Under the pieces are notes generated by a model. That model did not search any database. It had not been told where the DNA came from and saw only the letters and a program-made list of their open reading frames with translations. The position numbers were made by a program, and so were the translations under genes. From contig OZ014423.1 in the NCBI GenBank assembly GCA_963965975.1, positions 2,232,001-2,296,000 on the forward strand: a stretch of 64,000 nucleotides of DNA, written 5' to 3'. Source of the DNA: Xestospongia bergquistia. Taxonomy: Eukaryota; Porifera; Demospongiae; Haplosclerida; Petrosiidae. Shown here one piece after another: positions 17,946 to 60,545 of this stretch. Numbering within the stretch: the stretch's first letter is position 1; every line of letters begins with the position of its first letter.

Positions 17946-17989
17946 CCACTTCCCAAACCAAAAGCCAATAGAGATTCCTAAAAGTTAAA

Positions 17990-37350: not shown

Positions 37351-37661
37351 CTAGTCATTCTGGTATTTTTGGAGTAGAAATTGATGAATCTCATGTGATA
37401 ACTTTGGATTGTTTACAGGTGGTTCTGTAACAACATTCCTTATTGTCTCCCAAGTCACTGGACGTCCCTGATTATTCATCCACCTCTGTAAGACCATGTC
37501 AAGTTTTGTTTTGGTATTAAAAATATCTGCATGACTTAAGGCTTTAAGTTCATAATAAGGTATATCCAATGACTCTCCAATAAGTAACCAATCTGCAATA
37601 GGAGATAGCAGGCGTAGCAGATCTGGTTTTGGTGGCTTTTGTTTTAGAACTCCAGGAATAT
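37351..37661 (-). CDS. Terminal Death-domain exon, distal copy (alternative 3' end or stranded duplicate)
   Basis: An acceptor (tacatag|AT at 37,661) is followed by 311 nt ending in a stop. This is the same length and the same phase-1 entry as the terminal exon at 43,456-43,766. The translation is a Death domain: 'PDLLRLLSPIADWLLIGESL', 'LDMVLQRWMN' and 'PVTWETIRNVV'. Read after the exon at 38,391-38,699 it closes an open frame, so these two exons could form an alternative C-terminus of the minus-strand pseudocaspase gene by skipping the nearer terminal exon. Otherwise they are leftovers of the segmental duplication or belong to a separate gene whose body I cannot see. An intact frame argues against simple decay. 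Confidence 0.6.
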
Positions 37662-38390
37662 CTATGTATGTATAGGACAAGATGAACAGTTACCTTGCTA
37701 TTAAAAGTATACAAATTAATAATAAATGTTTAGTGATGTATTACTGTATAGGACTGGTGGATGCTATTACTGTTATGAGCCAACTAATCAAATTGTATAA
37801 TTAGATTGATAAGTACAACCTGACAAATATTTTGATGGTACTGCTGTATTTGTGTAATGCTGCTATATATACAATATAGCCATTAGTTATATGCACACAA
37901 TATAGTCAAACATATTTTGATAGCTATACCCTAAATCTTAAATGGGCATATCTAAACCTAAATGCACATGTGTAGTGCTCACTATTTAGGATGTTACTAA
38001 TGCCTAGTTGCTGTAAGTGACTGTTGTTTAGTGTTGCTGTAAATGACTGGATTATTGTTAACTTTGAAGACTAAAGAGCTGGCAGAGGTTATGGAACTGC
38101 TTAAAGACATTTTCAATTAGTCAAAACATTGGTTGCTATGTGTGTTAGTGGTTACAGTATGTGGGGTTAATTTTATTCATCACTCTTGAAAGTTGCATAC
38201 ATATATGCCCATATAGTTAACATTGTCTAAAACAATCTTAGGACTGCCTGACACACTGCACATGCCAGGAGGAAAACTTAATTCTGAACCTCATGATTAA
38301 ACCAAACTGATAAATAGTCTATGATAGCTAAACATACAACGTGTTTGATGGCAGAAGCTAATAAACCTCAGACCAGTTTCTACTGCTTAC

Positions 38391-38699
38391 CAGGTTTTTC
38401 AATATCATGTGTAACCTTTGGTTTTTCCATAAATTTACGTATCTTATCTGCTACTGTTTTACTGTTGACAATAGGACCCTCCACTACAGAAATCATTGTC
38501 TCCCAGGTCACTGGAGTAGATTTAGTTTCAATCCAAGACTGAGTGATCATTGCAAGCCTTGTCAGGTTGTCATATATACCCATTGTTAGCTGGTCCAGTA
38601 CAGTGTATTGTATTTTCAATGCCATTCCAATTTCCTCCCACTTATTAGCAATATCAGCTAATAGAGTCAGTACTTCTGATACATCAGACACAAATGTGC
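38391..38699 (-). CDS. Internal Death-domain exon, distal (phase 1 to phase 1)
   Basis: Acceptor tttacag|GC at 38,699, donor ctg|gtaagc at 38,391, 309 nt, phase 1 at both ends, open throughout. It encodes a Death domain (SEVLTLLADIANKWEEIGMAL, 'LAMITQSWIETK', 'PVTWETMISVVEGPIV') and ends 'DIEKPG', the same linker as the exon at 45,963. It lacks about 15 residues at the start that the other Death exons have. It probably belongs with the terminal exon at 37,351. Confidence 0.65.
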
Positions 38700-38984
38700 C
38701 TGTAAATGAAAAGTTGACAATTCTTAAAAGACCATAATATTCTTTGTTAGAATATACATAAGTTTAATAGACCAGTCAGATTACATTATTTGCAGTTAAT
38801 AGAGCACTTGTGGTTTGTGTTTGGTCTACAAGCATAGCAAGATTGTACTGTGCATGTGCAGTAATAATTGTCTATAGTATACACAAACTCAAGTGGACAG
38901 GCAAATAAGAAGTATCTCAACCATTGATGTTGACTAGCAAGATTCAAAGCAATGAACAACTGCTTGCTGTGCCACCAGTAGTAA

Positions 38985-39035
38985 CATCACCCCCTGGCTG
39001 ACCTATCATTTGATCACCTCTCCTTCAGATGACAG
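38985..39035 (-). pseudogene. Relic of an H-type first exon/promoter
   Basis: 'atttgatcacctctcctt' is identical in position and nearly in sequence to the region just upstream of the H3 ATG (24,961-24,980). No exon survives. It shows that the second copy of the I-gene block also carried the start of an H gene. Confidence 0.45.
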
Positions 39036-39097
39036 GCTATTTTGGTTGAAATTATAACTTGTGTAGTTCATAGTATTTAATATACCAGTAAGTAGTA

Positions 39098-39515
39098 CCG
39101 TAAGGGTATAAATTTTCGTGGGGGATTTAATTTCGCTATATTCGTGGGTTGTTGTTTTAACACGAAATTTAACTTTTATTCCACCCACGCATAATCACGT
39201 GATCTCAATAAAGCGTGTAAATAACGGCTACTGTAAAGGGTTACTTCTTTCTATTTTACACTGAAGTACTTCTCCATCAACTGCCTCCCACATTTTCTTG
39301 TATACATGGTACCCTCTCACCATGGATTTAATGGAATACGTAGCCATACTTCGGGAAAATCACGCTTGTGTTAACAACACGTGTCTGACACCACACCCAT
39401 TAATTAATACTTCACACCCACTAAACACGAAAATTAATACCCACGAAATTTAAATAATAAAGCAAAATTTAAAAAACACGAAAATTTAAACCCTCGAAAA
39501 TTTGTACCCTTACGG
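39098..39515. mobile_element. MITE family B, copy 2 (418 bp, TA target)
   Basis: Same inverted termini ccgtaagggtataaatttt / ...acccttacgg as the copy at 27,687, with TA on both sides (39,096-39,097; 39,516-39,517). The two copies differ by only a few substitutions and short gaps, so the family moved fairly recently. Confidence 0.85.
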
Positions 39516-39683
39516 TATTCATAGACAATTATGCATATTATATGAGGTCATCGGACTGACCCTAGATAAAAGTTATGGACACAGACAATTCTCATAGACA
39601 ATAAAGTACACACATGGCAAATTCCAATTATAACATGAAAAACATTACAAAAAGGATTGATGTGATAGATAATAAAAGAAAGG

Positions 39684-41504
39684 TCATTGATCTACTGGTA
39701 GTTTATCAGTAATAAATTTTTGCAATTTAGTAAAAAAATAACGAAGCTTGTCTGTCTCATTATGATATGAATGATTCTTATGAAATGGAGTACAGTCCCA
39801 GAAGAGCTGTGAGAAGTAGAAGATGGAGCATTGTTCTGTTCTTCTATATGTATTGAAGAGGTTTAAAAGAACTTTGACATTGAAAACTCTTGTAGTCTGA
39901 GTCTGAACTATAGCTAGGTGGACGTGGAAGTGGTCATATTTCTTCAAAACAACTGTCTATTAAATCTCTTATTTCTATTAAAAGAGTATAGTCTTGAGCC
40001 ATATTTAAATCTTCAGTATTCTCTCCAACATTTGAAGCTCAATACTGTTGTTTACCAATTGATTAGATGAAGTAGACCAGGTTGGAACTTGATCAATACC
40101 CTTTATCTGCAATTCATCTATTTTGTTCTATAAAGATTGAAATTTGTTCTCCGAGTCAGTTTGAAGCAAGCTAATTTTCTCTTCTAATTTACTAACTTGT
40201 GCTTGCATATTACTAATATTAGGGAGAGATTGGATAATATCACCCATCTTCTCTGATAAGGATTCCATTTGATCAGCAGTAAGTTTAGCTACTTCATTGA
40301 AACACCGTTTTAAATCTGCTTTTATGGGTGAGAGTTGAGGACTCATGCTATGATCAGTATCTTCTAGCTTTGTAATTTTATCCTTAACTCAAACACACTA
40401 GTTACTAGAGAACTAAGTTCACAATTAAGATGTTTCACTACATAAGATAACTCCTTAATTACATTTTCTCCATTGGCATGACCACCAACCATAACAGATT
40501 CCTGAAAGAAAATAGTAAAAGTTAAATGAAATACTTTGAACCAATATAGATCATGCAAAGGGTGTGGCTAAGGTAACATAGTCTCTAAAGCCCAGATATC
40601 AGATAATACTGACACGTCACACATGCTTTCTGTTACATTACATGTGCCCAATACTTTGTGATATAATCCTGTCAGAGTATGTAAAATAAAGTTAGTGTAT
40701 AACATCAATGTGGAATGTATTTGATTAAAAGATATATAATCTAGAAAAGGATCTCAAGAGTTCTATTGTTGATGCAACTTTTGAGTGACAACAAAAATTA
40801 CTACATTAAGCAATTACCAATGCACATAGCAATCAATGAATATAATTACTTTATAGTAAGGGCTTAGAATTGGGTGTGACTAATGAGCTCTGCGACTAGA
40901 GAAAAGTCTGAGCAACTTAGCTTCTACCATCTCTCAATTTTTCAATTTAATAACATTCATAAGTTTCACATAAAATAAAGGAAGAGACAACTATATTTAT
41001 AAGAAACAATGCTAATCATCATTGTGTACTTTAAAATGTGGGTATCATGTCATTCATCTAATCCCATTTTGTCTAACAAAATGTTATATTGTTCCATTTC
41101 ATCTAAAACTGTAAAGGCCTAAAATAATTCTACTTAAAGAATCAGTACCGAACTTAGCACTACAGGTTGAACCTTAGAAAATGTTTACTGTCTTTGAATT
41201 ATAGCTGTTTGGAGGCTTCCAAAAAGTAAGAGAAAATATCGAAATCTTGAAAACAGACTTTCAACTATTCTTAGGGCATACAGCCAATGGATTTCATTGT
41301 AATTAGTATTAATTTAAAAAACTCCTTGAATTCTGGATCGTTTCAATTTTAGATGAAATGGGACAAACTATATACAATTATACAAAATGGCTATAAACCC
41401 ATACATGGTACACCATACATATTCTGTCACACTTACTAGACTAACCTGATTATGACTTTCACTTTCATATTGGTCTTCAGTGAAGTAGCCACCAGACGTT
41501 CCTC
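39684..41504 (-). pseudogene. Decayed copy of gene I (I')
   Basis: The first exon is recognisable at about 41,447-41,501 (TSGGYFTEDQYESESHNQ-like, donor gttagt), but its ATG position now reads ACG. The second exon begins at about 40,503 (ESVMVGGHANGENVIKEL) and runs through pieces at 40,364-40,500, 40,128-40,346 and 39,684-39,947. These end with the conserved 'LQKFITDKLPVDQ' tail. Several frameshifts and a deletion of the acidic/Ser linker separate these pieces. It is a nonfunctional host gene duplicate from the 25-37 kb block. Confidence 0.75.
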
Positions 41505-41896
41505 AAGTTCTAGTAATCAGCATAAAGGTGTATTGCAAAGAGCATCCAAAATTGAAGCGAAACAAAATCCAAAACAATCCGTGATATTCACGTGATCATA
41601 TAGTAGCTTAGACACGTTGTACTATAATTGTTGACTAGTTTATCAGAGCCCTCGTTGGATGCCATTGACCATACCATATACAACCTTTGATAGGACAAAG
41701 AAGGTTAGTATATGAACTGATCCTTTATATTACATTGTAGAGTCTTTGTTTTCTAAGTTATGTCTGTTTATAGTTTTAAAATGTTTCTATTAACCTAAGG
41801 CTGTGTTAAGATGATTTGTGGAAAGAGAGAAAGTGGAAATGGGTCTGTAGACAACTTGTGTCTCTTACTCTATTTAATTTATTCATTTATATACAG

Positions 41897-43135
41897 GTGA
41901 AGATCGTGCTGTAGATCATTTAGTATTTGTTGTTCATGGTATTGAACCATTTGCAGATGCTAGACTCAGTACATTTAGAAGTCTTATTGATTGTGGTAAG
42001 TAATGATGTTAATATAATAATGTTTAGTGTTTCATTTAGTTGATGATTTTCTATTGCTCTAATAATCGGGGCCTTTTGTCAATGCAATTATTTTTAAGGT
42101 GCTTATGTTACAAATTATACAATAGATGGATTAATGGTACTTTCAATTATCTGTCTCTTGTTCATTTAAAAGGTATAGGTAAGGACTCCAGTTCTACTCC
42201 TCCTACTACTTCAACTACTGGAGGTGGAGGTAATACTAGGAGAAAGAAAGCAGTTACTTCATCTTCATCGGATGTTTGTATTAGAAGGGAATCATTTGTG
42301 ATGGTTCAAGCTATTCAAGCTCATTCAGATATTCAGATGTCATCAAAGTTTCAGTTTGGAGATTGTCATTGTGTCTAGTAAAAATGTAAAATAGAGGAAT
42401 ATTATGAGCTGTAAAATTTGCTCCAGGGTAAGACAATTGTAGTCGGGTATACATGCGTGTGTCCATTTAATTACCTATGCATCCATTTGGTCACCTATGT
42501 ATCCATTTATCTATGTCTATTTATTCACTATTAATATAATGTTGGATAGCATGTCTTTTCATATATCTATTTCAGATTCTGGCTAGTTGTTAAGCTAGAT
42601 CATTCTCATAGTATATGTGATGTACCAAAGGAGAAAAGGAATATTTCAAATGTCAGCCTAACCATGGCATCTTTGTCCTACCATCAAAAGTTAGCAAGGT
42701 TATCAAAAAGATAGTATTGACCTGCTGAGGTAGTTCATAATCCTCCTGTTTCAACTTCACCCACTGCATGGAGAAGACAACTAACACCCAGTATATGAAT
42801 GTATGGATGGATCTAATTAATGGATGGAATTAAGATTACAGGTTTGTCTCATTTTAGTAAAGTCCATCCAAGAGTTGAGTTTTATTTTCCTGCTGCCATG
42901 TCTTTCTTTGGCTATAGCACCTGATATTACAATGGAAAAGGTATAATGTATGCATGTACATATCTGTTTTAGGGTATGAGTGTTTTTGTTACACTCTAAG
43001 CCACATTCCTGGAGTAGTCAGTATGACCAACATATCGTACTATTCCTTTCTTATTATTGACAAAAAGTCAGTTTCTTATACTTTTTTGTTTCTTTTAACC
43101 CCCCCTCTCTCTCTTCCTAGGTAGTAAACTGTAAA
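41897..43135 (+). pseudogene. CAP-Gly-domain gene copy 2, decayed
   Basis: Clear exon 41,897-41,995 (phase 1 to phase 1; EDRAVDHLVFVVHGIE...), then about 42,170-42,430 with a Ser/Thr/Gly-rich linker and 'RRESFVMVQAIQAHSDIQ' leading into 'FQFGD', then 42,576-42,720. In this last part one frame reads 'FWLVVKLDHSH' and another 'YFKCQPNHGIFVLPSKVSKV', the two halves of a CAP-Gly domain. The split between frames and stops in the 'FGD' region show decay. The 'DHLVFVVHGI' motif recalls DDHD-family lipases, but too little is present to be sure. It is a duplicate of the 29.5-37.1 kb region without the retrotransposon, and so represents the pre-insertion site. Confidence 0.55.
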
Positions 43136-43455
43136 TCAAGCTTTTTGTTAAACCAAAAAGGCTGCACATTTTGGCATTAACTGCACTAAAGTAGACAAAT
43201 AGTTACTATTAATAGTCGCATGTCATGTCACAATGACATCATACAATCTTAATATAGCCATATCTTGTAAGTTCAGTTGTAATTTGTGACACACACAGCA
43301 CTTAGCCACTATTATAGGAAATTTTAATACAATTTCAGGCTTCAATTTTAGTGTCTTCAGATCGAAGTAGGACCTAGTAATTGTTATTTAAAATGTGAAA
43401 GAGTTGGAATTGTTTTACAAAACATTTACTGATGTAGTAAGTTTTTTAATTTATA

Positions 43456-45197
43456 TTATGAATTCACATCTAGTTTGTTTAGAAAATGGCGTATCTCATC
43501 AACTAAAGCCTTGTTTTTAACAGGTGGATTACCAACAATATCAATGATTGTCTGCCAAGTGACTGGACTACATTGCTTATCAATCCATATTTGCAACATT
43601 TCAGAGAGTTTATTTGCATCAGGTGAAGGAAAAGACTGCAAAGTTTTAAGGTCACCATATGGTATATTTAATAATTCTCCAATTTCTATCCACTGATACT
43701 TAATAGGATTTAACAATCTTAGTAGATCCTTTTTCATAGGCCTTTTCTCAAGCACTGCGGAAATATCTAAAGGATAAATGAGAACAAAAGTTATCAGAAA
43801 AGTACTTTATGGCTGGCATGTGCTGATAATGTTACATAGTTGACTCAAAATGTACCAAATTTGAAGTACACAGTCATTGTGACAGTGCTCTCTATAAAGT
43901 ACCATAGATGTAATCTTATAGTAAAAGCTCACTGTGATGTCACCATATTGGTCTCAAAAGTTATATACAACAATAGATTTAAAAATCTGAAAGTGAATAT
44001 ATACATAATATACAAGTGCTCCAAAAAGAGTCTTCAGACCTCCTGCCAAGTGGAAAAGTTTTTTGCACTAAACAACTATAAACGTTTTTGTTTTAAAATA
44101 AGCAAACAACAATAAACAAACAACTTTGAAAAGATAAAGGATGTCCAATGTTAGTATGATATAAAGAATGTAAAGGTAGTAGGAATGACATTTTATCATC
44201 TACTATACATAATAGCAAAGGCAAATGAAGAATGGAACAATGTCTATGAATTACTCAGAGATTCTGATATACAGTAATGCATTTCGATTTGCCTGTCCTA
44301 TCATGTAGAGATGATGAAACATCAGTGATCGATGGATTTAGTTAGTTTGAGTCTAACCAGGTATTAGTATACTTTCCACACAGCCTTAAAGGTCACAGGG
44401 TACTGAATTTAACTGTAATATCAAATTACAAGCAAACACAATCTTTCTAACCTGTGTAAGGTTGTATAATATTTAATGAGATTCACAAGCTATCAAACAA
44501 CAAGTGTATTTTAAGTTTAACATCCTGTTTTCAACCCATTATAATCTATAAGAAACTGTTGATGGAATATTCCTTCAAATTTGTATGTACTAAAGGGAAC
44601 TATCTTAACTACCTTTTAAAGTGTTTCTTAGAGAAAATCTTCCATCAATCACTTGAAAGACGGGTTCTAAATGCTTCTAAAAAGTTTCAGAACCAATAGT
44701 TGAATAAAAAATTTGGGGGATGTTAGATCTTAGAAAGCTCAACTAAAATTTAATATCTTGAGTTTAACTAACAGAAGTCACACCAGTCAATTTTTGTTTA
44801 TATGTTTCATGCTAAGTAGAGAATTTATATCAGTAATTGTGTACAAATTAAACTATTTTCTGGCTCAAAACATAACTTTTACCATTGCTAACTAAAATTC
44901 ATATAAATAGTATCCCATAACCTTAAGGACTTGACTTTATACCTTAATACATGGGTGGATCAAAGGTTTCTTTGACATCATTAATTGACCATTCTTTAGC
45001 ACAATACATAACAATTATAGGACAGACCAGTAACAGTCAGGCAATAAAAGGTAATTTCTCAGGTATAATTGAGGTTCCTTACTGAAAACATTACTGGCAT
45101 ATTGATACTTTGAAAAATGACATACAACAATATAAGATAATGTAAATGGAGATGTCATGTCATTGTATGTTTAGTTAGGTATTCAACTAGAAAAGAG

Positions 45198-45245
<48 letters not shown>

Positions 45246-45272
45246 CACACATATACTTATACATATACACAT

Positions 45273-45318
<46 letters not shown>

Positions 45319-45361
45319 CATATACATATATTACATATACATTATTATATATATGCATATG

Positions 45362-45432
<71 letters not shown>

Positions 45433-48400
45433 GCATATATTGTCACAGATCTTAGAACATACTGACATGGGATTGAAAACAAGCACTATCCTAGCGTTGC
45501 TCCATACTATAAGTTATTATGTCATAATGTTAAAAATAATACAATGTTCAGTAACACAAATTGTTTATGTTATTTGATACAGTATGTTTAACATCTAGCT
45601 TGTGTTATACTGTTGATTCTTGTTAAGATCAGTTTTCAAATCTCACACTCAAGGCCTTACAAAAAGCAGCCTGTATGTGTTTTATAGAATACAGATTATT
45701 AAAATGCATTTCCACTAAATCTATGGAATCTTGATTCTTGTTAAGATCGTTTTCAAATCTCACACTCAAGGCCTTACAAAAAAAGCAGCCTGTATGTGTT
45801 TTATAGAATACAGATTATTAAAATGCATTTCCACTAAATCTATGGAATCGTGTTGTTTCCAATCCCATGTTAGTATCTATCATATCATATAGTTAGCACA
45901 ATTTTAGGAGAACTGGTAATGCCACAGGCAGTAGAAATTATACATGTAGTTTATTCACTTACCAGGTTTTTCAATGTCAGTTACATTATCATACGGATTT
46001 AAGTGAGTAAGGTAGTCTCGTAGATTAGCTGCCACTGTCATATTGTTGACAATAGGACTTTCCACTGCAAAAATCACTGTTTCCCATGTCACTGGCATAG
46101 ATTGAGTATCTATCCAAGACTGAACGACATGAGAAAGTCTCGTCAAGTTGCTAAAGCTGCTTTGAGCTAGGCTCATCAGGATACCCTCTCGTACATTTAA
46201 AGCTAACCCAATATGGTACCAATTATGATCAATAGGAGCTAGCAGATTAAGCAGGTCAAACCTTGTGGGTTTCTGCTTCAAGACTTCAGAAATATCTGTA
46301 AAATAAGAGATCCAGTAACAGTTTGCAATTGTATGCAGCATAGTATACTCATATTTAAAAAAAAGGACTAACAAAAACTGTTGAAGTACAGAACCCTCCC
46401 TCTACACATTAACAAATCTGTAATAAGCCAAATTAGGGGGCTCTGTAATTTGTATTAAGCATATTGTTAGGTTTAGCACAAATTGCAGCACCACCTACAT
46501 TTGGATTATTAATACTCACCACTTATGGTTACATTTGCCTGTAGGGTCACAAGTGTATGCACACATTGATTAATTTGAGTTCTTAAATGCTTGGCAAGTT
46601 AAAATATGTGCTTTATTTAAATATGTCAGCACCCTTGTTAATATTTATATCCAGATTTGCTAGGTTTAATTTGACAAATTTATCAAAAGTGGAAGAGTGT
46701 CAGATGAAACATCAAACCCTATGTTCACAACTACCATGGATTATAATAAAAATCATCCTTAGTGTAATGAACTATAAAAAGAAAATGGTGTTATAAGATA
46801 TATATATTGCATACCATGTTTTTTAATGTCAGTTGTATTCTGTGACTGATTTTCTTGTAACAAAAACTTCCTAATATTATCTGCTGCTTTCTTTTTTCTA
46901 ACAATAGGACCCTCCACTGCTGAGATCACTGTCTCCCACGTCACTGGAGTAGACTGAGTGTCTATCCAATACTGAATAACCTCTGAAAGCCTTTTGATGT
47001 TAGTAAATTTGCTCTGATCTAGGCTACCTAGGATACTATACCCTACTTTCAATGATAATCCAATTCTCTCCCAATCATATGCAATATCAGCTAGCAAAGG
47101 AAGCAAATCTGATTGACGAGGCACTTCCTTTAAAACTTCAGTAATATCTAGAAAACAAAAGGTTGTCAGTGACATAGTAGGATATATTTACAAAATGTTT
47201 GGCATGTACACAGCATACCAGGTAGTCGTATAATCATTTAGGATCACTTGTTGTGTATATGTGTGCGTGTGTATTCATATGAGTTTGTTTGTTTTGATCA
47301 TTTTATTGTATTCTATGTGACAATCAAATTGATGAATGAACTTAAACTACATCCTTTAACTGCCAATGCATACAACAACCAATGAATTTCTGAGTTCTGT
47401 GATTCAAGAAAACACATATTTGAGCAGTTCCATAGCTTGTACCAACTCTCAATAAAACATAACCAGTCTGGTTTTTCTCATAAAGGAATAGAGGCCACCG
47501 ATCTAAATCAGCCAACTTGTTGGCAATGTGAAAGTTAATTAAAAGGATAGTTGCATCCTATAGCTAAGACCCCATGATCCCCCGCAAGACCAAAAAATGT
47601 GACCAATAAATTTGCCTTAATAACTCTCTGTTGACTACTCTAAATAGGGCTCACTTTAGATTGTCTACAAAAATTACAAGGACAAGATAGTTTATATAAC
47701 TGTAATCCAGTGATAAACCAACCAAACAATCATGATAAACCTCGTGAGTTTAGACTATAAATAATAAAACTATAATTGCAAAAGTTGTGTAATATTTTTT
47801 CAAGTGCTGATGCTAAAGTAATAGAGAATGATTCATAAATGCTAAGTAAGTGTAGACTGTATCAACTGCATGAAGCATGACCAGTCATACTCGTCATCAT
47901 AGCACTCATGGTAGAATAAATTACATTAGTAATTGATTATATTTCAAGGAATATATATAGTTACATAGAACAGTAGAATAAAACAATACGAGTTGACCAA
48001 TCCCAACACACACATACATACAGTCTCTGACATATGAAGCCTGTGGAGGCCCAGTAGGTCATGTATAGTTGTACAGGGCGATTTGTAATAAATCACAAGG
48101 TTATAGCACAATTTTGCTATAGCTATGGCTATAGCTATGTAGTCTATTGCATGATCATCTTATAGTCTTGTGGTATATTGCAATATCGTCCTACAGCCTA
48201 TTATAAAATTGTCCCATATAGCTATATGTGACATACTGAAGTGTGCCAGGCAGTGAAATATCTCATGGGATTTAAAATCATGCATAAAGAAAAGAATAAT
48301 AATTAAACTTGTACAAATAAATCAGGTTGGTTGTTAATACAATTCACTGCTGCTTGCAAAATATACTAATATTTTTTAGAGTACATAATTTATAAATTGA

Positions 48401-51400
48401 TTATACAAGACATGATATATTATCTGACCTTTAGTGAGCCATGCCATCTGATGCTTGTTAATAGCAAATGTAGAAGAACCATCTTCACAACATACAACCA
48501 CATCCTTATTCTTGACTGGATAGCAAAGGTGTTGTCTTGTATCATGTATGGTACAGTAAAAACATGGCTGAGGAGGTGAGATGAATGCTTCGCAATTGAA
48601 TCTCTTAGTCACACCCTCAATTCCTTCATAAATCGCATTTCGAATCCCCAAACATCCTTCTGAATGACCGGAGTAATATATCTCGAGCCAATAAATTGAA
48701 TCAACCAACAAAATTTCAGCCTTCAAGTCATTACATTCCAAACGTATTGCATTACGATATCGGGACTCACCATATCGATAATGAGATAACTCAAATGTTG
48801 GAGCAGAACACCGATAGAGAAGGTTCACGCTCAATGCAAGAAAAAGACCTTGAGGTATAGGCTCCATGTTCCATGATAAAATAAGAGGATCGACATATTT
48901 GAAGTTTTGGTGCAATGAGTCCAAATGAAAAGTCATAGAGAGAGCACTTGGGATAAAAAACTTTCCATGTTGTGGTAGAGGGGCAACAATATACAAACTC
49001 ACCATTAACTTCAAAAAATGGTCAGCTGAGAACTCAGGAGAAAAGCCTTCAAAAAGATAATCAGTCAGCAAATCTAGATCAAAAATCCCTTCATTCTTCA
49101 ATTGTTCGTGTGCTCCTGGAGGAAGATCAATCTCATTATCTTCCAAATGATCCACAGCCTCAGGAATAGAAATACTAATTAGTTTAGACAACTTATCCAA
49201 TAGTGGCTGTGGGTGAAGAAACACAATGTCAGGAAGGACTTCAGGAAAGTAGAGGAATTTCCCTAGATTAATGAAAAAATGCAATGCTTCTTCAACTTCA
49301 CTAGGATCCATATTGAGAGCTTCTCCAATTCTAATACACTCAGATTTTCTTGCAATCTTGATGAGAGAATTTTCCTGGAGCTGGTCTAGACTTTGCTGGA
49401 ACAAAACCCATCGAAAAGGGATTTCTTTTTCCTTGTAAAATTTAGATATCTTGCGACGAATTAAACTAGTCATTTTAAAATTACTGGAGCTACTCACAAG
49501 AGGAAAGATCACCATCCTTCTGGATTCTCGATAGTTCAATCGAAACTTTTCAAATTGTTTCAAAGTCGACCACAGTATTGCATCTTCCTCGCTAATCTCA
49601 TTTGAATGGATCCCCAGTACCATAATGTGGGGCATATCTGGCAGGTCTATAGATGCTAGTGAGCGAAATGAAGCTTCAAGATGTTGTAAATGTGTTAGCT
49701 GGCGTTCATCTGGTTCAGGAAACAGCTTTCCTTTGACATTGTAGTAGAAGACAGATTTATCTTCAAGCTTTTTATCTAGATTGAGTGTGAGAATGTTGAC
49801 TTGATTATATTGCAAAATAGCTGGAGCAATATCTATAAAGGCAGGTTGTCCACCTGAGTCTATGAGGTTGATCCAATGCACACTTAGGTTATCTGCTGTC
49901 TTTTTGGCCAGTACTGTCAAAAAGCCATGGTCCATCTTCATCCAAAAGTTGTCATCATTTGCCATGAGACTAGTGGTCTTAACTTCAGACAGCATATCTG
50001 CTGATGTACTACGGTCATCTGAAAGAGGCTCATCAAGTAGTAGTTTCATAATAGATGATCTACAACTTCCTGGAGGACCTGAGAAAGAGACACTGGTCCA
50101 TCTCACAGTCACATTACTTTCAAGAGGACGCTCCAGAAAATCAAAATAATCTATAACATGAATAGGAATCATATGATTAATATACAAGTAAAATAATTAA
50201 GATACATAAACATAAGATTTTCCTTAAAGCATGTAACATAGGCAGTACCAACCAAACATTAAGGTTTTAATTTTGCTAGAAGGGAATGATATTATCCTAT
50301 ATTATCAACCAGTTTATAAATATCTAAAGACAAATGATCAAGTGTTATCCAACAGACAATAAGTATATTGAATGCATGGCATCTTGGGACAGGTGAGCAA
50401 GCTAATGAAAGCTGAAGATTACTGAATGAGTGTCATAGCAGAGAGAAGTGACTCTACTAAGTATTTGTTCTGCAAATAATGTAGTGTATGAAGAGGTCAA
50501 CTGTAATGCTAAACTAAAAGATACAGGATAAAGTACAACTGTAGGCCATTACACTGTTAATAATAATAATTTTTTATTAAGAAAAAATAACAAATAATGA
50601 TAAATTGATAATACCATAGATATAGATTTGCAACATAGATTAAATTGTGAAGTAGTTTAATGACAGCTGTAGCTGTCCCGTATCTAGCATGTTGGCATTG
50701 CAGTTGAATCTCTCCTTATATTTTATCTACATATTAGAGATGTTTAGACTAGAATTATTTGGGACATTACAAATTGTAATCCTGAAATCATGCTGGATTT
50801 CTAGAACATGTGAGTTGGAACAAAATGTCCATTCAAATAGGATATGACCACCCATTTAATTTTCTTGCATCATCTTAAGTGATGTTCAAATTTGCTTACA
50901 AATACAATGCACATTGAAATGACCTTGCAAGGTTGTTTCCTTGAATGTAATTTTTTGATGCACAATCAGATACAGTGTACTGGTATGAATGAAATCAATT
51001 CGGAAATGAATTGAATGTGTATTACATGACCAGTATGAATACACTTAATAAGATTGCACAAAACATTCACAACTTCTACCAGAAAAGTGACTTTAATACA
51101 TAAATAAATGCCTGGATGTTTGTTGAGGAATATAATATGTAGCTTAAAGTTTATTCATTGCTTTCAACATCTGCACATAACAATAAACATAACAATGCAA
51201 GTGAATACATACATGAGGGACTACTACTGCCTACTTTACTTTGCATGTTTGGTAATAAAAACAATCAAAACTCTTAAAACACTCACCAATGAAATAAACA
51301 GCCTTTGATAGCTGTGATATGACTTCAATACCTTGTCCAATAGATATCCGGTTGCCAGAGCATTTTGTAGGAAACATGCTTAAGAGAGCAGATATTTCGA

Positions 51401-52905
51401 AAGTCATTGATATAAGATCAGCAGTCATTGATCGATGCATAAAAACTTCATTTAAAACTACTGTTGACAAGCTAGAATTGCTAATTTTCCCTTTCTGGGT
51501 GGACCACATAACAAATGTATCAGGGGCAATACGATATTGAAGTGGCTGAGTTGCTTTAGTTGGAACAGAATTAATAAAAAAAAGCTTTGGTTTTCCTAAA
51601 AGGGAAAGACACTGATCTATCTTATCAACCAGTTCATAGACATCTGGAGATACATCGTCAGATGTTATACAACAGACAAAGCTATCATAAGCAGTGTGAT
51701 CCATAGAGGCTATTTCTTCCATTAGTTGCATCATTCGTGAGACAGTGATGTTCGAGTAGTACCGAACTGAGTAATGTAAAAGTTCAAACAAATATTCAAA
51801 CTCAGTTGTAGCTCTTCCAGGTAAACTATGTGTACTATCCTGGTTTTTAATGACTAGAGCAATACCATGTGGTCGTGCCTTCATAAGGTAAAGTGGTCCT
51901 GGTATCTCGTTTATGTCTTTGCTTGAATGTTTTAGAACAAATTCTACTGGTAGAAATAAACTATGTCCCTCATGACAAGGAAAAAAACTGTTGTAACAGC
52001 CACTAGTAAAAGTGTTATCACCCAAAACTGGACTATCCTAGAAAAAGAGAATTTCAATAAAACTTGAAATATATTCATGAAGCCTTATTGAATATGCAAT
52101 CTTATATACTTGGAAAGTGATGAAGTTTAGCAATGACATTCTAATTAGTCCCCACCATGCTGTTATACATTTCATGTCAATTGTGGGTATTAAGTGTCAC
52201 AGACACTTGTTATAAAATAACATATCCTAGAGGTGATGGCATTTTAAACTAGACTAGGCAATAGAGGTATTGCATATGACATCATTTCTACAAAAGTTTG
52301 AGCATTATCTGTATCACAGTCACCAAGTATTGGATAGCTTAATTGTGCTTTCAAGCCTTTTGTAAAATTAGTGTGTTAAAGTACCTTAAGCACAAAGACT
52401 TATGTCCTTTCTACAATTCAGACACTCATAAATCTTATCAATTATTACAAATATTTTAATGCTGATCCCTCTTACCCCCTAACCCTTAAGTGTTGCCCAA
52501 GATTTGGACTATCACATTGAGACATAAGTACATTTGACCTCATAAGTGTCAGTTTCAGTTATTATAACCCCTTCTCCTTAGAATAGGTGTGGTGCTTGAG
52601 AACCTCCCCCATGGGTGGATACATTTCAAAGTAACAAGTTCTATTCTTTCTCACTATTTACTTACTGTTTCTATTCCAGCAAACATTTGTTGGCCACCAA
52701 AAGAAGGCAACACTCCCAACCATCTCACTACACCAGCGATGGGTTTAGTGGAGGGTAACCAAATCGTTTTTTCTTCAATTTTATTAATGCTTTCAGTAGC
52801 ATACTCCCAGAAGTCGCTAGGTAGAACAAGTCTGTCTTCTAGAGAAAGGAAGATGGGTTGATCAGAAAATGGCAGAGACACAGGTACATTCAGCTTAACA
52901 GCCAT
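43456..52905 (-). CDS. CAP-Gly / pseudocaspase / Roc-COR-like / triple Death protein (about 1,229 aa)
   Basis: Exons: 52,666-52,905; 51,287-52,037; 48,429-50,150; 46,815-47,147; 45,963-46,295; 43,456-43,766. All junctions agree in phase (0, then 1 throughout). Residues about 20-120 form a CYLD-type CAP-Gly (GVVRWLG...MFAGIE, then [17 protein letters not shown] across the exon 1/2 join). About 130-330 is a caspase fold ([27 protein letters not shown]), but the His of the SHG motif is replaced by SDD and the QAC-G cysteine by NSVPT, so it is catalytically dead. About 335-840 is Roc/COR-like with P-loop GPPGSCRSS (Lys replaced by Arg) and an intact switch DSGGQ. It ends in a Cys/His cluster (CFYC..H....HLC...CC). 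Three Death domains follow, to residue 1,229. Likely a cytosolic signalling scaffold; this role is inferred. Confidence 0.8.
45199..45316. repeat. (TA)n-rich microsatellite
   Basis: TA repeats interrupted by CA and CT steps. Together with the CA tract it makes a spurious Tyr/Ile/His frame on the + strand. Confidence 0.9.
45365..45429. repeat. (CA)n microsatellite, about 32 units
   Basis: Uninterrupted ca repeats between two atgcatat-type flanks. Confidence 0.95.
45613..45849. repeat. 117/120-bp perfect-like tandem duplication
   Basis: 45,613-45,729 and 45,730-45,849 both begin ttgattcttgttaagatc and end ctatggaatc, and differ by about four indel bases in A runs and one position. A very recent local duplication in an intron. 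Confidence 0.85.
47148..48428. other. Intron between the Roc-COR exon and the first Death exon
   Basis: 1.3 kb, no coding sequence seen. It contains a short 'agctatagctatgg' repetition near 48,115 and nothing else I can support. Confidence 0.5.
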
Positions 52906-52967
52906 TTCGCAAGTACGATCCCGTGATCCGGTTTCCGGTGGGCGATTTAACTGTTAACTTCGTAAAG
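52906..52967. promoter_or_regulatory. 62-bp divergent promoter of the two pseudocaspase genes
   Basis: The start codons at 52,905 (minus) and 52,968 (plus) are 62 bp apart, so core promoter and both 5' UTRs must fit here or overlap the genes. The stretch is GC-richer than its surroundings and contains the near-palindrome ccggtttccgg, with GGAA/TTCC cores as in ETS-type sites. There is no TATA box. Function is inferred from position. Confidence 0.6.
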
Positions 52968-55900
52968 ATGGAGGTCCATCTTCCGTTCATTGATGGAGCA
53001 TTCTCTCTCTGTTTGGATAAAGAAGTGAATGATATACCGATTGACTTTAATTCCGATGACTTGACTGCAAACGGCGTAGTGAAATGGTTGGGGAAACTAC
53101 CCGTTAGTAACTCAATAAAGTTTGCTGGATTAGAAATGGTTAGTAACCAACTGAAGGTATTTTAGTCTCTAACCTTATCCTTACTATTTAACTGTATTAT
53201 CCTACTTTAATCATAACTTTTAGGAAGCTTAACCTGCTAATTTAAAACATTTGGTATTAATTTTAGCAATTTTTTCCATTTAACTATATTTTATTCCTGA
53301 AATAAACATTTTAGAATGTATAAATTTAGCAATTTCAGTACTTGCTAAATTTACTAAAAAAAGTGCCTCCTCCTTTCTGATCTGTTAGGCGTAGGAGGGT
53401 CTAGAATTGAACATACTGTTACATAGAGGTTTTAAATGGAATCACTATAGCTGCCCATTTTCTGATAATAGATTTAAGGGCAATTTTGGATGTGTTGCTA
53501 ACCAAAATGTACTGAGAGTGTGTTTTTATCTTGATAAATGCTAACATTTTGTCTTTAATTTGTAGTATATTATGTACCTGTCTTTGTGTTTTAACATATT
53601 CTGCATTCAGTTATAATGCAATTCTGCAAAGTGTTCGAAACTAAGCTTGCCACTTGCCAATACAGGTTTGTAGACTCTTTGTTCTCAAAGATGGGAGCAG
53701 TGACACATATCATGCTCAGAATCTTATGGAATGTGTTATATACAATACCGCTTATTGGAATGTGGGAGAATATCATGAATGTTTACATAGTAGTTATGAA
53801 TTCTTAATTATGGTTGCCATAGTTTTAGTGTCTATACCAAAATGCGTGAAAGGCTAATTAGGCTATGCTCTCTACATGTTGAGAATGACCACTAACTCAA
53901 TGTTATAACTATGGCTGAGAATGAGCTAGAGAGAAATGGTTTACACTATTCAAAATACCTTGCAAGTCTACAAACATTATCAAAAAACTAGAGCACTAGT
54001 TGTTTAGAGAAAGTTGCAAACCAGAAATCCTATATAAAGCTAATGGGATTCTTCACATTCTACTGTGATCTGATGTCATGCATAATTTGCATATTATTAA
54101 CATACACTCAAACTAACAAGCATTCTCCAGAAAAGTTCAAATTCAGAAACTCTCAAAAATACCTTTAATAATAAAACTAGGATAGATTAAGAAAAGACAA
54201 TGACAAAGAACCACAAAAAGCTTCAGTATGACTCATAAAAACTTTTGCAACTACAATGCCTCGCACAAGTTAGATTGATGATCATGATGTTATCATAATT
54301 GAAATTCTACTAAGGTGAACAGGGTATACCTTGCTAACCTTGGAAGTTAAAATTCTAGACCATAAGTTACGAATATTTCCAAAATTACTTGCACATAACT
54401 CTGGCATAATTAAGAATTTCCTAAAAGGACACTACATGTATATGTACTTGCACTTTGACAAAATAGTTCAACCGTTCTCTTGTCTTGTGCATAGTATTCC
54501 AGCTAAAGGACACCTTAGTGAAAAAAAATAATGATTCCATTGATGTGTAAATAATATTAACTACAATCACATACAGTTGATATACACTATGAGGTTTGAG
54601 TACTAGTATAATTTTGTTTTCACATCTAAGCAAAGCATATTTCACCTCTTAATTTTCAATCTGAAACAGAAAAGTACTTTCAATATTAGAATAAGAATTA
54701 CAAAGGTGAAAATACATTAAAAACAGTACAATAAAATCATACATACCTGGTACATCAATTCGTGTGTTGGGTATTAAGTTTGTTTAATTTCTTATTGTTT
54801 TTTTGTATATACATTTAGGACAATTGCTTTTTTAAGTTTAATGGCTCGTATGCTGGTATATCATATTTTAATTGCTCTGAGAACTGTGGAGTATTCTTAC
54901 CTGTTGAATTGGTTGTTAGGTATTGCGACAATGACGTTCCAAAGTCAATATCAAATTATTATTGTATGAATGCCAGGCCACACGGTATTGCTCTCATTAT
55001 TGAAGTAGGGAGTACCAAAGGTCACTCTGTCTGTTACATCGAAACTACTTTCAAGTATTTAAGATACAAAGTTGAGCTCCATCATAACAAATCTAGTTTA
55101 CAAATGACAAAACTTGTGAAAGAAATAGTTTCTCTTGATCACAAAATTTATGATAGCTTTGTCTGTTGTATATTATTTAGTGAACAATGTCAACAAATTG
55201 ACATTGATGGGCTAGTGGATAACATCCAAAAGTGCTCTTCTCTACAAGGGAAACCAAAGCTTTTATTTATTCAGAGTAGCCAAGAATTGTTTCAGCACTC
55301 ATTGCAAAATGTTGATCCTGATATGCTTATCGTGTGGACAAGCCTAAATGCATATGGAAGTGATAATCAGTTTGCAAATGCTTTATGGAAAGCTTTCAGA
55401 TGTAATATCAGAAAGCTTGGTCTGATCTCAGTAATGGAGAAAGTAGCTGCTTATTTTGTCAGCATGTTCCCCCCAGAAGAAGCAAATGGGAAAATGTATA
55501 TTGAAATGAATAATAAACTTAAAAAAGAAGTCTACTTTTTGTCTCCAAATGAATTACCTGGTATGTTTTGAATTTTTATGACATCTATAATTGTTCTCTT
55601 ATCTTGCAGATTATTCACTGTGTCTGAAACCTCATGATGAAGAATACATTACCTTTCAGTGGACCACGCTTATCCTCTCAGGTCCTGCAAGCAATTTATC
55701 AGTTTTGAAGTTATTGTTAAACAATGTTATTCACCCTAATGAGTCTCCTGATGGTGCTCAATCTAATGATTCTCCTGGGAGTGCTCATCTTGAAATTGGA
55801 AAAATAGAAACTACTATCTTGCAGGTAGATGAGTCGAATACATGGAAGAAAATGGACTATGAGTCTTTAAAGACTGTGAGAGAAAAGGTTATGAAAGATG

Positions 55901-58900
55901 GTAGTAAACTGCATTTTGTTAATGCTATTGAATCAAGAGGTCATGCTGCCTTTTTAGATATTGTTTCACCTTTACTGCACTATAATCCAGTGAATGTCCT
56001 CGCATTAGAGTTGAACCAAAAGCTCAAGGATGATAAAACCATGTTTTACAATATTGAGGGTAAGCAAATCAAGGATCAGTTAGAGGAACGACAACTAACA
56101 CATTTAGAGTACCTTGAAACATCATTTCGTTCTTTGTTGTCCGTTAGTACACCTGACTTGCCTGTCACTTGTCCCTCTGAAGAACCTAAACCTTCGATTC
56201 TAGTTCTTGGCATTTCAAATGAAAATATTGATTGTAATGAATCTTTAGATGAAAAAAATCGCATTCTCTGGCCAAAATTGGAACAGTTTAGAAATGTAAA
56301 TAAATGTTGTCGTGCAACAAGAAAAGAGGTTATCTTTTCTATTGATCCAAAAGCAAAAAAATATCATGAGATTGCTACAAAAATTCGTCGTATAATATGC
56401 AAATCTTCCATTGAAGTAAAAATTTCTTACCTCTGGTTCAAACTCCTGCTGGAGTTATACCAATTACGGTCTGGACAACAGTCTGCAAAAATTATTAGAA
56501 AAACGGAATGTGTAAGGATTGGTAGGGACTTAAAGATGGATTCTGGTGACATTGAAACAGCTTTAATTTATTTTCACCATCTAACTTTTATCTCATACTT
56601 TCCTAAAGTCCTTCCTGATATTGTGTTCCTTCACCCACAACCAATCTTCGATAAATTGTCTGAATTAATTAGTATTTCTATTGCTGATGCAGTGGATCAT
56701 TTGGAAGATGAGGAGATTGATTTAATGCCAGGAGCACATATTGACCTCAAAGAGTTTGGAACTTTTGAACGTGACTTATTGAAGGATTTTCCACTTTTTT
56801 CTGATGACTTTACAGCAGAGGATTTCTTGCAATTAATGGAACATTTTCATATCATTTCTTACTTGCCACAGCAAGGGAAGTACTTTTTACCTCGTGCCCT
56901 TCGTACTACTCTCTCTGAAGCCTTGACCTGTCGCTATAAAGCATATGTTGACCCTCTTATCTTGACCTGGAACAAGAAACCCATACCTCAAGGTCTTTAT
57001 ATTGCATTGGTTGTTAATCTTCTTGGACGTGAGAACTCACCAAAGTTTGATCTTGTACCAGAATCTGTCCAAAAATGTCAATACCGTAATGCTATTCGTT
57101 TACGATGTGTTGATCTTGGAAGTTCTGTTCTGTTAGTAGAATCTAATTATTGGCTGGAGATTTATTACTTTGGCTTTTTAGATAGCTGTCCACTTCTCAG
57201 TAGTGCAATTATAGCTGAAGTTACCAAAGTTGCTGAGAAATTTCACATTAAGAAGACAGAACCTGAGGTGTGTTTTTATTGCACAAAACATGAAGAATTG
57301 AAACACCTTTGTCGTGTACACGACAAATCTAAAAGAATGACTTGCTGTGAACACAGTGAAATGTATGATATGGATCGTAAATATCAGCTTCCTTGGTTTG
57401 AAAAAGTGGAATCTGAAACTGATAAAAATCTCCGAGGTTAGTAGCATTATGTGGTTTAGTGTTATGATGTTCTACTGATACTGGTATTAGTATTGTTATT
57501 GGCACCAATACCAGTATATCAATATTGGTAAACAAAATGTCAATGCTAATCAGGCAGATAGTAGTACTGCCTTATATAGGGATGACAATATTGTGTATTG
57601 GCAAAAAAAATCTTACCAAAACACATCAGAAAACCTCAATACTTGTCAGTCTTCTTCCTCCCTATAATAATGCCTATCTGTTGGTGATTTATAGGCTAAG
57701 CAATGTTTCTAAGCATCATAGTAGAAGTTGATAAAAATACTTAATTGTTTATGTTTCTTCTTTTGTCCACAAAGATAAAAGATTTACCACTAATTTCAAA
57801 GATGCCACACAATCTGAAATGAACTATCTGCTTTTGCATCTCACATTTTGAGTGCTTTAGAAATGAAACCATTTAATTTCAGCAATTTACTTTCAAGAGC
57901 TACTCTTAGAAAACCATTTTCTTATGAATAATTAATATTAACAGAAAATAAATGAATGCAAATAGAGAATATTATAAAGCTTAGTCTCCTACTTTTGATA
58001 GTAATTATAGACTACTGTAGATTGGGAAAGTTTTGTTGTTAAAAAAAGTTCAAGCGTTAGACAATGTACGAAAATTAATTACACTAAAATTATTACACAT
58101 TGAAATATTTACAATATGCAGTGCACCTGTTATTCGAAGTGTAGACAGTGTAGATATGACTAGGATGGCTCTTTTGAGATATGTGAAACTTATGGATGAT
58201 CCAAAGGTTCTATCATCCTCCATGCAACCACAGGCAATTGCTTGGCCAAATGATAAGGCCATGAAAGCATGTCCAAAAAAATGTGAACCTTATCAGCTGT
58301 ACAGTTCAGGCACATGAGCTAAAATTGGTAAATAGACTAGTCGTCATGGTGTTACCTGCAGGCTTGCAATTCTTTTTTAGGATTATACACATGATAACCT
58401 TGAATAAAATAATCCATACTGTATTCTTCTATAGTGCTCTGTGTTGCATGTTGCAAAATTTAGGGGTTAATAAATTTTCGTACATGCTTCTTGTGTCCAA
58501 AATTTTTTTAACATGTTAATTTGAAAAGCTTACAACAGTATTTCCTCATTTGATGTTCAGCTTAAAAGAAGATGCATGACTGATAAGCTGATGAGTATAA
58601 GCCTACATTGAATTAAATATCATTACAACTGTCTTGTTTATTCTAGAGGACTTCTTGTTACTCAGAACTCATGATGGAACCATTCCAAGTTTCCACTATT
58701 TCTCTCATTTTAGTCATATTAATTAAAATAATTATTAATTCTTCATCACAATATGGAAGAATGCTTTTTTGTGAGCTGGTTGAACATGAAATCTTGTTGC
58801 CTTCTATTGTGCTACAGCTTTCTCTACTTAATATGAAAATATTTGCATTTAAAAAATGAAGAAAACAAGTAATAAAAATATTTTCTAAAAATGAAGTAAA

Positions 58901-60545
58901 CGTAGGATGGGTAACATCTATCAGTCCACAATACAAAGAATGCAAACAAGATCATAGTATAGGGATGTCAATTGCATCATTCTTACATAACAGCATAGAT
59001 GGCATAAACAATTAAGGACATTCGATTCACCAACTATCTAAATTATTCAAATAATATCTTATCGCATTATGTACCTGTGTTATTATTAGGGATAATGCTG
59101 ATTGCCATCTCTACCATCCTGCTTACATTCTCTTATTATACTGATATTAGCCATCACTATATTTACTTCCATTTTTATAACTTTATTTACTTGTTAATAT
59201 TAAGATGGAGCTCAGTAAGCCTGTAAAATGCTTGTTAAAAAAACTCATTTCATATTGTATTATGTTGCAATAATGTTACATAAAGTTTAGGTACATTTTT
59301 TCTCAGTTCTTGTTACTCGTATAGCACTGAAATTTTGAATACATATAGATGTATTGTTACAATTGTACTAAGCAATTTTACTATGAAGAGTTATAGTCCA
59401 AAATGTCACTACACTATCAGGAATTTAATGATCTGGACTTGGTAGTTGGTATACAAAATTGTAGGATTTGGGGCTTAGGTATAATAACACCTTGTAGAAA
59501 GTTTCATTTTCATATTATAGCCACAGATAGCAAAATATACCTTTATATATCACAATCAGTGAGCAAATATTGTTGAAATTTTCATCGACTTTATGTCAAG
59601 TTTTATAGCAATGATAGAACTTCTTGAGTTAAGTAAATGCTGCAAAAATTAGTAGTCTTACTATAGTTCACCTGACCACACCTTATAAGCCTAAATTGGA
59701 GCTTATTGTGCAATGTACATTTCAAACTGGGTATGGACCAAGGAGTGCCTTTCACACCTTGTCCATTTAAAGAGACCTTTCATAAAGTATAAACTAATGG
59801 ACAAGTTTAGCTTAACTAACAGAAAATTGTTCTTTATTTTCATTTTAATTTGTTGTATTTTCATACATTATTTGGCTGACTAACATAATGTGTGTGTGTG
59901 TGCTGTCCACATAGAGTTGGGGGCCAATTACCCCCTCTGGAAGGTTTGCTCTAGATCTGCAGTATTAAATTTATTAATTTTTAAAAATCTTTATTCAAGA
60001 GTCACTTCCAGCAGTGAGTCAGTATGCAACAATCTTGGCAGCTAGAAAGTGACCAGGTGTAACAGTTATAATAAAATTGTTTAAATAATTATAATTATTG
60101 TATAAACGCAAAAAGTAAACCATAAAACATTGTGCTATCCCTACATAGGCAGTATTACTACCTGCCTGATGAAGTTATGTATATGTGCAAGGTTGTTAAT
60201 GCTCTATTCCTAATAGATATTACTGCAGTGTTGGAAAAGAAACCTGACAAAGATGACTTGCTTAATATACTAGCTACCATTAGTGCTGAATGGCAGGAAA
60301 TTGGCATGGCTTTAAAAATAAGCAACAATGACCTCTCTGGTTTAGCTAAAGATGCCACTAAGTCAAACATAGTACGACTTTCTGATGTTCTAGAAAAGTG
60401 GATGGAAACTGCAACAGGTATAACATGGCAAACAATTATTGGGGCTGTTGATGGCCCTATTGTTAACAAATCTAATAAAGCAACAGAAATATGTAGATTT
60501 CTGGCTGAACCAGAGAATTATTCTAAGTACAACAGCATGAAATGA
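52968..60545 (+). CDS. CAP-Gly / pseudocaspase / degenerate Roc-COR / Death protein (about 1,028 aa)
   Basis: Exons 52,968-53,156; 54,819-55,560; 55,610-57,436; 60,217-60,545. Intron phases 0, 1, 1 match the minus-strand paralog exactly; intron 2 is only 49 bp. CAP-Gly: GVVKWLG (36-42), FAGLE, then YFNCSENCGVFLPVELV after the join. Caspase fold about 112-310: [23 protein letters not shown] (no SHG) and GKPKLLFIQSSQE (no QAC-G), so catalytically dead. Roc/COR-like part about 311-920: the P-loop is reduced to SGPASNLSVLK and the switch motif to ESRGH, so no GTP binding is expected. The COR-like portion ([19 protein letters not shown]) and Cys/His cluster (CFYCTKHE...HLC) are kept. One Death domain (920-1,020; 'LATISAEWQEIGMAL', 'LSDVLEKWME') ends the protein. 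An upstream GTG in frame is ignored in favour of the ATG at 52,968. Confidence 0.8.
53157..54818. other. First intron of the plus-strand pseudocaspase gene
   Basis: 1.66 kb, AT-rich, without recognisable coding sequence or repeats. The short frames inside are unsupported. Confidence 0.5.
57437..60216. other. Last intron of the plus-strand pseudocaspase gene
   Basis: 2.8 kb between the COR-like exon and the Death exon. It contains a degraded family A MITE (58,015-58,525). No additional Death exon was seen, unlike the minus-strand paralog. Confidence 0.55.
58015..58525. mobile_element. MITE family A, degraded copy
   Basis: Starts ta|ctgtagattgggaaagttttgt and shares with 62,139-62,746 the blocks 'gttctatcatcctccat', 'ggcaattgct', 'tatcagctgta' and 'ttttttaacatgttaat'. 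The right inverted terminus is missing. Its open-looking frames are not genes. Confidence 0.75.

Follow-up and report, generated by a model that had tools for sequence, protein, structure and literature searches.

The Roc-COR unit is found together with a Death domain in DAPK1, and DAPK1, LRRK2 and other ROCO proteins contain a kinase, with LRR or ankyrin repeats. CAP-Gly occurs in CYLD, a deubiquitinase without caspase, Roc-COR or Death. FLIP(L), the sole pseudo-caspase of the human genome, has a caspase fold that lacks the catalytic His and Cys, and acts through dimer formation (PMC7586951). The lineage-specific animal protein encoded by the sea anemone gene NG3 has a central Roc/COR plus Death, and carries kinase, TIR and SH3 as well (PMC5094078). 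In Amphimedon, an expansion built on TRADD-N comprises 357 proteins in which Death-like and caspase domains are mixed with others (PMC8195603), and brown algae possess expanded LRR-ROCO genes with diversifying binding parts, which have been proposed as immune receptors (PMC11378527). Here we describe two genes, A and B, from the sponge Xestospongia bergquistia, located in a stretch of 64,000 nucleotides (hereafter, the window; positions 2,232,001 to 2,296,000 of contig OZ014423.1), whose deduced products would combine CAP-Gly, a dead caspase, Roc-COR and Death in one protein.

We are highly confident of this architecture and of the existence of a family that shares it. In agreement with the original prediction, none of the papers retrieved from the open-licence literature describes, in its title or abstract opening, a protein with all four domains. 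The sponge family contains CAP-Gly, Roc-COR and Death where FLIP(L) has two DEDs, and it shares Roc-COR with ROCO proteins of the DAPK1/LRRK2 type, although no kinase, LRR or ankyrin was found in the sponge proteins scanned. Neither caspase nor CAP-Gly is named for NG3, and neither Roc-COR nor CAP-Gly for the Amphimedon expansion, in the consulted parts of the respective reports. In the brown algal genes the diversity resides in the LRR exons, with no mention of caspase or Death in the abstract; they offer an analogy of principle rather than of components. Pfam scans retrieved neither NACHT nor LRR, which are parts of NLR receptors, from the window exons or from two full-length paralogues.

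Genes A and B extend over positions 43456-60545 of the window in a head-to-head arrangement, on the minus and plus strand, respectively, with 62 bases separating their start codons. The start codon of gene A is at 52905 and its stop at 43456; five introns interrupt an open frame of 3690 bases (1229 codons plus the stop). In gene B, which has three introns, the start codon is at 52968 and the stop at 60545, for 1022 codons plus the stop. Their introns are of the GT-AG type, the end phases 0, 1 and 1 are common to both genes, and the internal Death exons of gene A have phase 1 on both sides. In each gene, CAP-Gly is split over exons 1 and 2, the caspase fold is in exon 2 and Roc-COR in exon 3, followed by the Death exons, which are three in gene A and one in gene B. 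These splice models bear out the claim that both paralogs encode the same domain order in phase-consistent exons, and the open joined frames, with profile matches for each domain, argue for a single protein, as had been proposed. The two independent long frames, the matching phases and the recurrence of the order in further copies all disfavour a chance origin.

Using the product of exons 1 and 2 of gene B plus the start of exon 3 as a query, we retrieved 36 copies of the CAP-Gly/caspase exon from the 146-Mb genome, without counting six weaker matches elsewhere. Two of them are in the window, and the other 34 make up two arrays, with 20 copies on contig C11 (6.28-6.47 Mb) and 14 on contig C12 (5.39-5.54 Mb); the pair that had been taken as "both paralogs" is thus real, but it represents two of 36 such exon-2 copies. 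Exon 1 was located upstream of 32 of the 36 caspase exons, the sole unpaired match among 33 being a fragment, and direct reading revealed it in window B, in L010 and in the first gene of L051, three of the other four. At least 27 of the 36 copies have COR-A within 3 kb downstream (150 of 171 COR candidates scored); of the nine without a COR-A match, window B and both L051 genes had exon 3 on direct reading, and L011 had the Roc motifs. A Death exon lies within 6.5 kb downstream of at least 16 of the 36 (150 of 948 candidates scored). Four-exon genes closing with a Death exon were found in L050, L052 and the first gene in L051, and L049 contains the first three parts. An open frame in L050 was also considered as CARD-like, a reading that we rejected for lack of any CARD match at E <= 1.

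Pfam did not detect CAP_GLY in the exon-1 product of either window gene nor in exon 2 of gene A alone, and gave an E value of 5.2e-5 for exon 2 of gene B alone. With exons 1 and 2 joined, the match rose to 2.5e-11 (43.8 bits) in gene B and was 3.7e-5 in gene A (24.0 bits, for a cut-off of 26.5); two paralogues scored above this cut-off, with 36.9 bits for L050 and 37.7 bits for L051. Since the domain is completed by joining the exons, the sequence indicates that they are spliced together. The ligand motif GKNDG was absent from all 34 family copies and present in two other CAP-Gly loci of the same genome. CAP-Gly domains usually bind EEY/F tails, and this is unlikely in the family because of the missing motif. 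The CAP-Gly domain had been likened to those of CYLD, a resemblance to which our data point only faintly, through a CYLD-like protein (P0208, E 7.4e-4), the sole CAP-Gly protein bearing a name among the matches of the full-length family profile.

Peptidase_C14 was matched by Pfam in exon 2 of both genes (Table 1). A profile of five family members retrieved caspase-3 from the PDB at 8.6e-30, with the fold spanning the large and small subunits, and a structure model of the open reading frame (ORF) P0032, from a paralogue, matched CED-3 (7.5e-21) as well as caspases 3, 6, 7, 8 and 9. Gene A contains TSDD in place of SHG and INSVP in place of QACRG, and gene B shows ILFSEQ and IQSSQE at these motifs. 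As anticipated for the window genes, catalysis appears to be lost: the catalytic His, at the SHG position, and Cys, in the QACRG column, were found in none of the 35 copies read out of 36 (34 distinct ones plus L055, which has an internal stop; C12:5410126 was left out). The same genome contains caspase loci with SHG and QACRG or QSCRG (L024, L031 and L037), which are predicted to be active. Neither the exon 1-2 products nor two full-length paralogues gave a Pfam match to DED at E <= 1.

Exon 3 of both genes shows COR-A matches, that of gene B being below the cut-off (Table 1). A structure model of exon 3 from gene A, with a mean predicted local distance difference test (pLDDT) score of 69.9, matched Chlorobium Roco (6hlu, 3.2e-15) and LRRK2 (8fo9, 1.9e-13) over ca. 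600 columns, and the exon-3 product of gene B could be aligned with 22 further products of exon 3. Both window genes have lost the Walker A lysine, with the motif altered in A and the P-loop lost in B. In turn, the 28 array copies readable at that site all keep Walker A (five further fetched copies had an unreadable pattern), as do the 36 database relatives where it could be read. Because of these changes, A and B are probably pseudo-GTPases; of the Roc/COR-like GTPase proposed originally, the Roc-COR fold stands and the GTP-binding P-loop does not. The best database relatives of exon 3 of A and B were paralogues with ca. 50% identity, in a search whose length filter perhaps excluded shorter ORFs. 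Additionally, exon 3 includes a Cys/His-rich tail after COR (e.g. CFYCTKHEELKHLC...CC in gene B) with Cys and His conserved in the alignment, which could bind zinc.

Among the window exons, only the third Death exon of gene A matched Death above the Pfam cut-off, and the exon of gene B remained below it (Table 1). The first Death exon of gene A had no Pfam match at E <= 1 and the second had no Death match at E <= 1; both were identified by alignment to other family Death exons. Among the paralogues, L050 was above the cut-off (1e-4), and L051 and L052 were below. A profile from the family Death alignment found FADD at 0.0018. This type of Death domain is very widely expanded, with 948 first-look candidates, of which 150 were scored, across most large contigs of the genome.

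The end of gene A admits two forms. Skipping of its third Death exon and use of the exons at 38699-38391 and 37661-37351 also leaves an open frame, of 1332 codons; there are ATTAAA motifs 5 and 127 bases past the stop at 43456, and an AATAAA 66 bases past that at 37351, and either end is possible from the sequence. The original prediction started the locus at 37351, which is reached by the longer form, although the first in-frame stop of gene A is already at 43456. The exon at 38699-38391 had no Death match in Pfam. Between the stop at 43456 and these two exons there are a broken piece of a coiled-coil gene (ca. 40.5-39.7 kb) and, at 42040-42378 of the plus strand, a piece of an unrelated CAP-Gly gene family, which has an array on contig C6 (this piece and L053 share 59% identity over 70 residues). 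Positions 45141-45577, in the intron between Death exons 2 and 3, consist of a long TA/TG simple repeat.

Table 1. Features of the gene A/gene B locus; positions refer to the window and E values to Pfam profiles.
Feature	Position	Strand	Content and evidence
Gene A exon 1	52666..52905	-	Start codon and N-terminal CAP-Gly half; splice model
Gene A exon 2	51287..52037	-	C-terminal CAP-Gly half and pseudocaspase; Peptidase_C14 7.4e-10
Gene A exon 3	48429..50150	-	Roc-COR with altered Walker A (GPPGSCRSS), Cys/His-rich tail; COR-A 3.7e-10
Gene A Death exon 1	46815..47147	-	Phase 1-1; family alignment
Gene A Death exon 2	45963..46295	-	Phase 1-1, GT-AG; family alignment
Gene A Death exon 3 and stop codon	43456..43766	-	Death 4.2e-5, above cut-off; joined frame open
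Candidate alternative Death exon (from a gene A isoform, or else a fragment of another copy)	38391..38699	-	Open alternative form
Possible alternative terminal Death exon and stop	37351..37661	-	Death 0.034; AATAAA 66 bases on
Interval between A and B start codons, 62 bases	52906..52967	.	Likely shared divergent promoter region
Gene B exon 1	52968..53138	+	Start codon and N-terminal CAP-Gly half
Gene B exon 2	54819..55560	+	C-terminal CAP-Gly half and pseudocaspase; Peptidase_C14 2.5e-11
Gene B exon 3	55610..57436	+	Roc-COR without P-loop, 49 bases past exon 2; COR-A 1.2e-5, below cut-off
Gene B Death exon and stop codon	60217..60545	+	Death 0.022, below cut-off; AATAAA 73 bases on

In a caspase tree of 57 sequences, which includes three of the twelve in-genome caspase loci tried, the family forms a single clade (100/99). 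P0055, P0061 and P0065 cluster with window A (100/100), and P0124, P0125 and P0126 with window B (100/98), P0129 being further off. Window B also joins L010-L012 (98/86) and the placement of window A is unsupported (80/5), in a tree that carries a long-branch warning. A recent inverted duplication was considered as the source of the pair and rejected, because B groups with L010-L012 and not with A; judging from the tree, A and B are old, separate lineages. Relatives of A and of B in other assemblies share the respective altered catalytic motifs. P0065 and P0126 come from source contigs of equal size (10068 bases), which fits a head-to-head linkage in another assembly but is no proof of it.

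The full-length family profile matched 90 proteins, of which the named ones are an Amphimedon Roc-COR-Death-like protein, a Dysidea caspase and a CYLD-like protein; the caspase relatives with a named source are from Dysidea avara (P0136, P0139 and P0207). None of these 90 matches was an annotated protein with the whole order, which is weak evidence of absence elsewhere because the database searches need shared words of five residues. The Amphimedon queenslandica protein is LOC109585100 (P0203, 977 amino acids, predicted as uncharacterized), whose Roc-COR was aligned by the family profile with an E value of 2.5e-113. As in the Xestospongia family, Death-like parts follow Roc-COR in this one predicted protein; its P-loop is present, no CAP-Gly or caspase was found in it, and Pfam Roc, COR-A and Death are all below the cut-off. 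On a simple reading of these sequences, a Roc-COR-Death gene would have gained the CAP-Gly/caspase head.

We also estimated the ratio of nonsynonymous to synonymous substitution (dN/dS). Among A, B, L049, L050 and L051, exon 3 gave ca. 0.26-0.35 and exon 2 gave ca. 0.27-0.55, synonymous change being large for A and B. Within the arrays, exon 3 yielded 0.31 in both sets (six copies from C12 and ten from C11; L077 was filtered out), and exon 2 yielded 0.69 and 0.68 (13 copies per set; the sets did not include L010-L013, L015, L051, L055 and L068). We then compared the core of the fold with masked loops around the dead groove, which we take to correspond to caspase loops L1-L4; the mask was drawn once the sliding-window result was known, and the loop test is exploratory. 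The loops showed a dN/dS of 1.28 versus 0.43 for the core in the C11 set, reached by 5 of 1000 circular shifts, and of 0.88 versus 0.57 in the C12 set, reached by 65 of 1000. Of two usable pairs of active caspases serving as control, one had a loop excess, from a very small number of changes, and the other had none. Loop and core change were about equal in the A lineage, and the B lineage changed somewhat more in the loops. As an exploratory result, diversification of the groove loops in one array would fit a recognition or decoy surface.

Taken as a whole, we favour the explanation that these genes encode non-proteolytic Death-domain scaffolds of the ROCO type, to which we assign a probability of about 0.55; for the scaffold mechanism considered by itself, we put the odds at roughly even. 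Roc-COR units dimerise, and Death domains of this kind assemble signalling platforms in relatives. The scaffold picture follows from this dimerisation, from the missing cutting residues and from the presence of Death domains. The CAP-Gly/pseudocaspase head would bind a partner, the Roc-COR unit would bring molecules together, acting in the array members as a GTP-dependent switch, and the Death domain would relay the signal to adaptors with Death domains. Diversification would take place among the array members, and the window pair would be nucleotide-independent members, retained as two separate old lineages.

Several observations weigh against this explanation. Pfam Death matches are weak or absent in gene B and in two of the exons of gene A, and the exon downstream in L049 lacks one. 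Also, 16 of the 35 copies (15 plus L055) have a Cys at the position immediately preceding the catalytic column. The CAP-Gly region of the P0032 model is below pLDDT 50, without a confident fold; the database ORF behind this model reads through a short intron inside the domain. The junction of exon 3 with the Death exons is the weakest link, because the exon-3 donor of B, L049, L050, L051 and L052 (GTTAG) places an in-frame stop codon right past the splice site, and a Death-less message would be possible by intron retention. It might then be argued that the parts belong to separate genes or messages, such as one with exons 1-3 and no Death. We consider this improbable, since CAP-Gly is complete only when exons 1 and 2 are joined, exons 2 and 3 are separated by 49-59 bases in B, L049, L050 and L051, with a phase-1 junction and conserved donor GT and phase-1 acceptors, the donor of gene A (GTCAG) leaves no in-frame stop at the junction, and P0203 unites Roc-COR and Death-like parts. 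Even less credit is given to the notion that A and B are decaying pseudogenes, hence their P-loop loss: they lack the Walker A kept by every readable array copy, but their frames are open over more than a thousand codons each, the dN/dS of exon 3 is near 0.28 against the paralogues, and close relatives in other assemblies carry the same altered catalytic motifs.

Other alternatives accept the architecture and differ in the role of the dead caspase. The pseudocaspase could pair with an active sponge caspase and tune it, like cFLIP, inside a Death-domain complex; this is a tentative alternative, favoured by the retention of the fold over both subunits, by the active caspase loci in the same genome and by heterodimer formation as the mode of action of FLIP(L) (PMC7586951), yet the scanned full-length proteins contained no DED match and 34 array copies are a large number for a regulator. 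The array members could instead have an integrated decoy or recognition surface, catching foreign caspase-targeting molecules in the dead groove and signalling through the GTPase and Death. The two tandem arrays, the faster change of exon 2 than of exon 3 inside them and the loop excess in both sets point in this direction. However, the mask was chosen after viewing the sliding windows, one of the two active-caspase pairs has a similar excess, albeit with very few changes, the loops barely exceed the core when window A is compared with its relatives, and the contrast leaves room for gene conversion and relaxed constraint, so that we regard this role as unlikely. With a similarly low expectation, the family might be a new type of animal immune receptor, consisting of arrayed ROCO proteins in which a dead caspase beside a divergent CAP-Gly would act as bait for microbial molecules that target caspases; the groove loops would diversify, the GTPase switch would be constrained and Death would be the output, with the window pair as helper or partner subunits under one divergent promoter.

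Outside this locus, the window contains nine long coiled-coil-like open frames on the minus strand (2456-3400, 4702-5598, 7603-9024, 13350-14462, 15221-16075, 16995-17984, 20671-21528, 22488-23471 and 25111-26202), several of which are clearly paralogous to each other; the three that were scanned matched no specific Pfam family above cut-off. Their relatives include the broken piece downstream of gene A and another stretch near 61.1-61.8 kb. At 902-1333 of the plus strand there is an open frame for another type of Death-like sequence (Death 9.2e-4, below cut-off), and frames at 32910-36068 of the same strand resemble a retroelement (zinc knuckle, protease and reverse transcriptase, on visual inspection of the ORFs). 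No tRNA or Rfam match was found in the window at the gathering threshold.

In all, this one sponge contains about three dozen pseudocaspase genes, joined to Roc-COR and Death, versus the single FLIP(L) of humans. The family offers a testable case of the recombination of cell-death parts in an early lineage of animals and, should the groove signal be confirmed, it would be a case of decoy logic in animal immunity.

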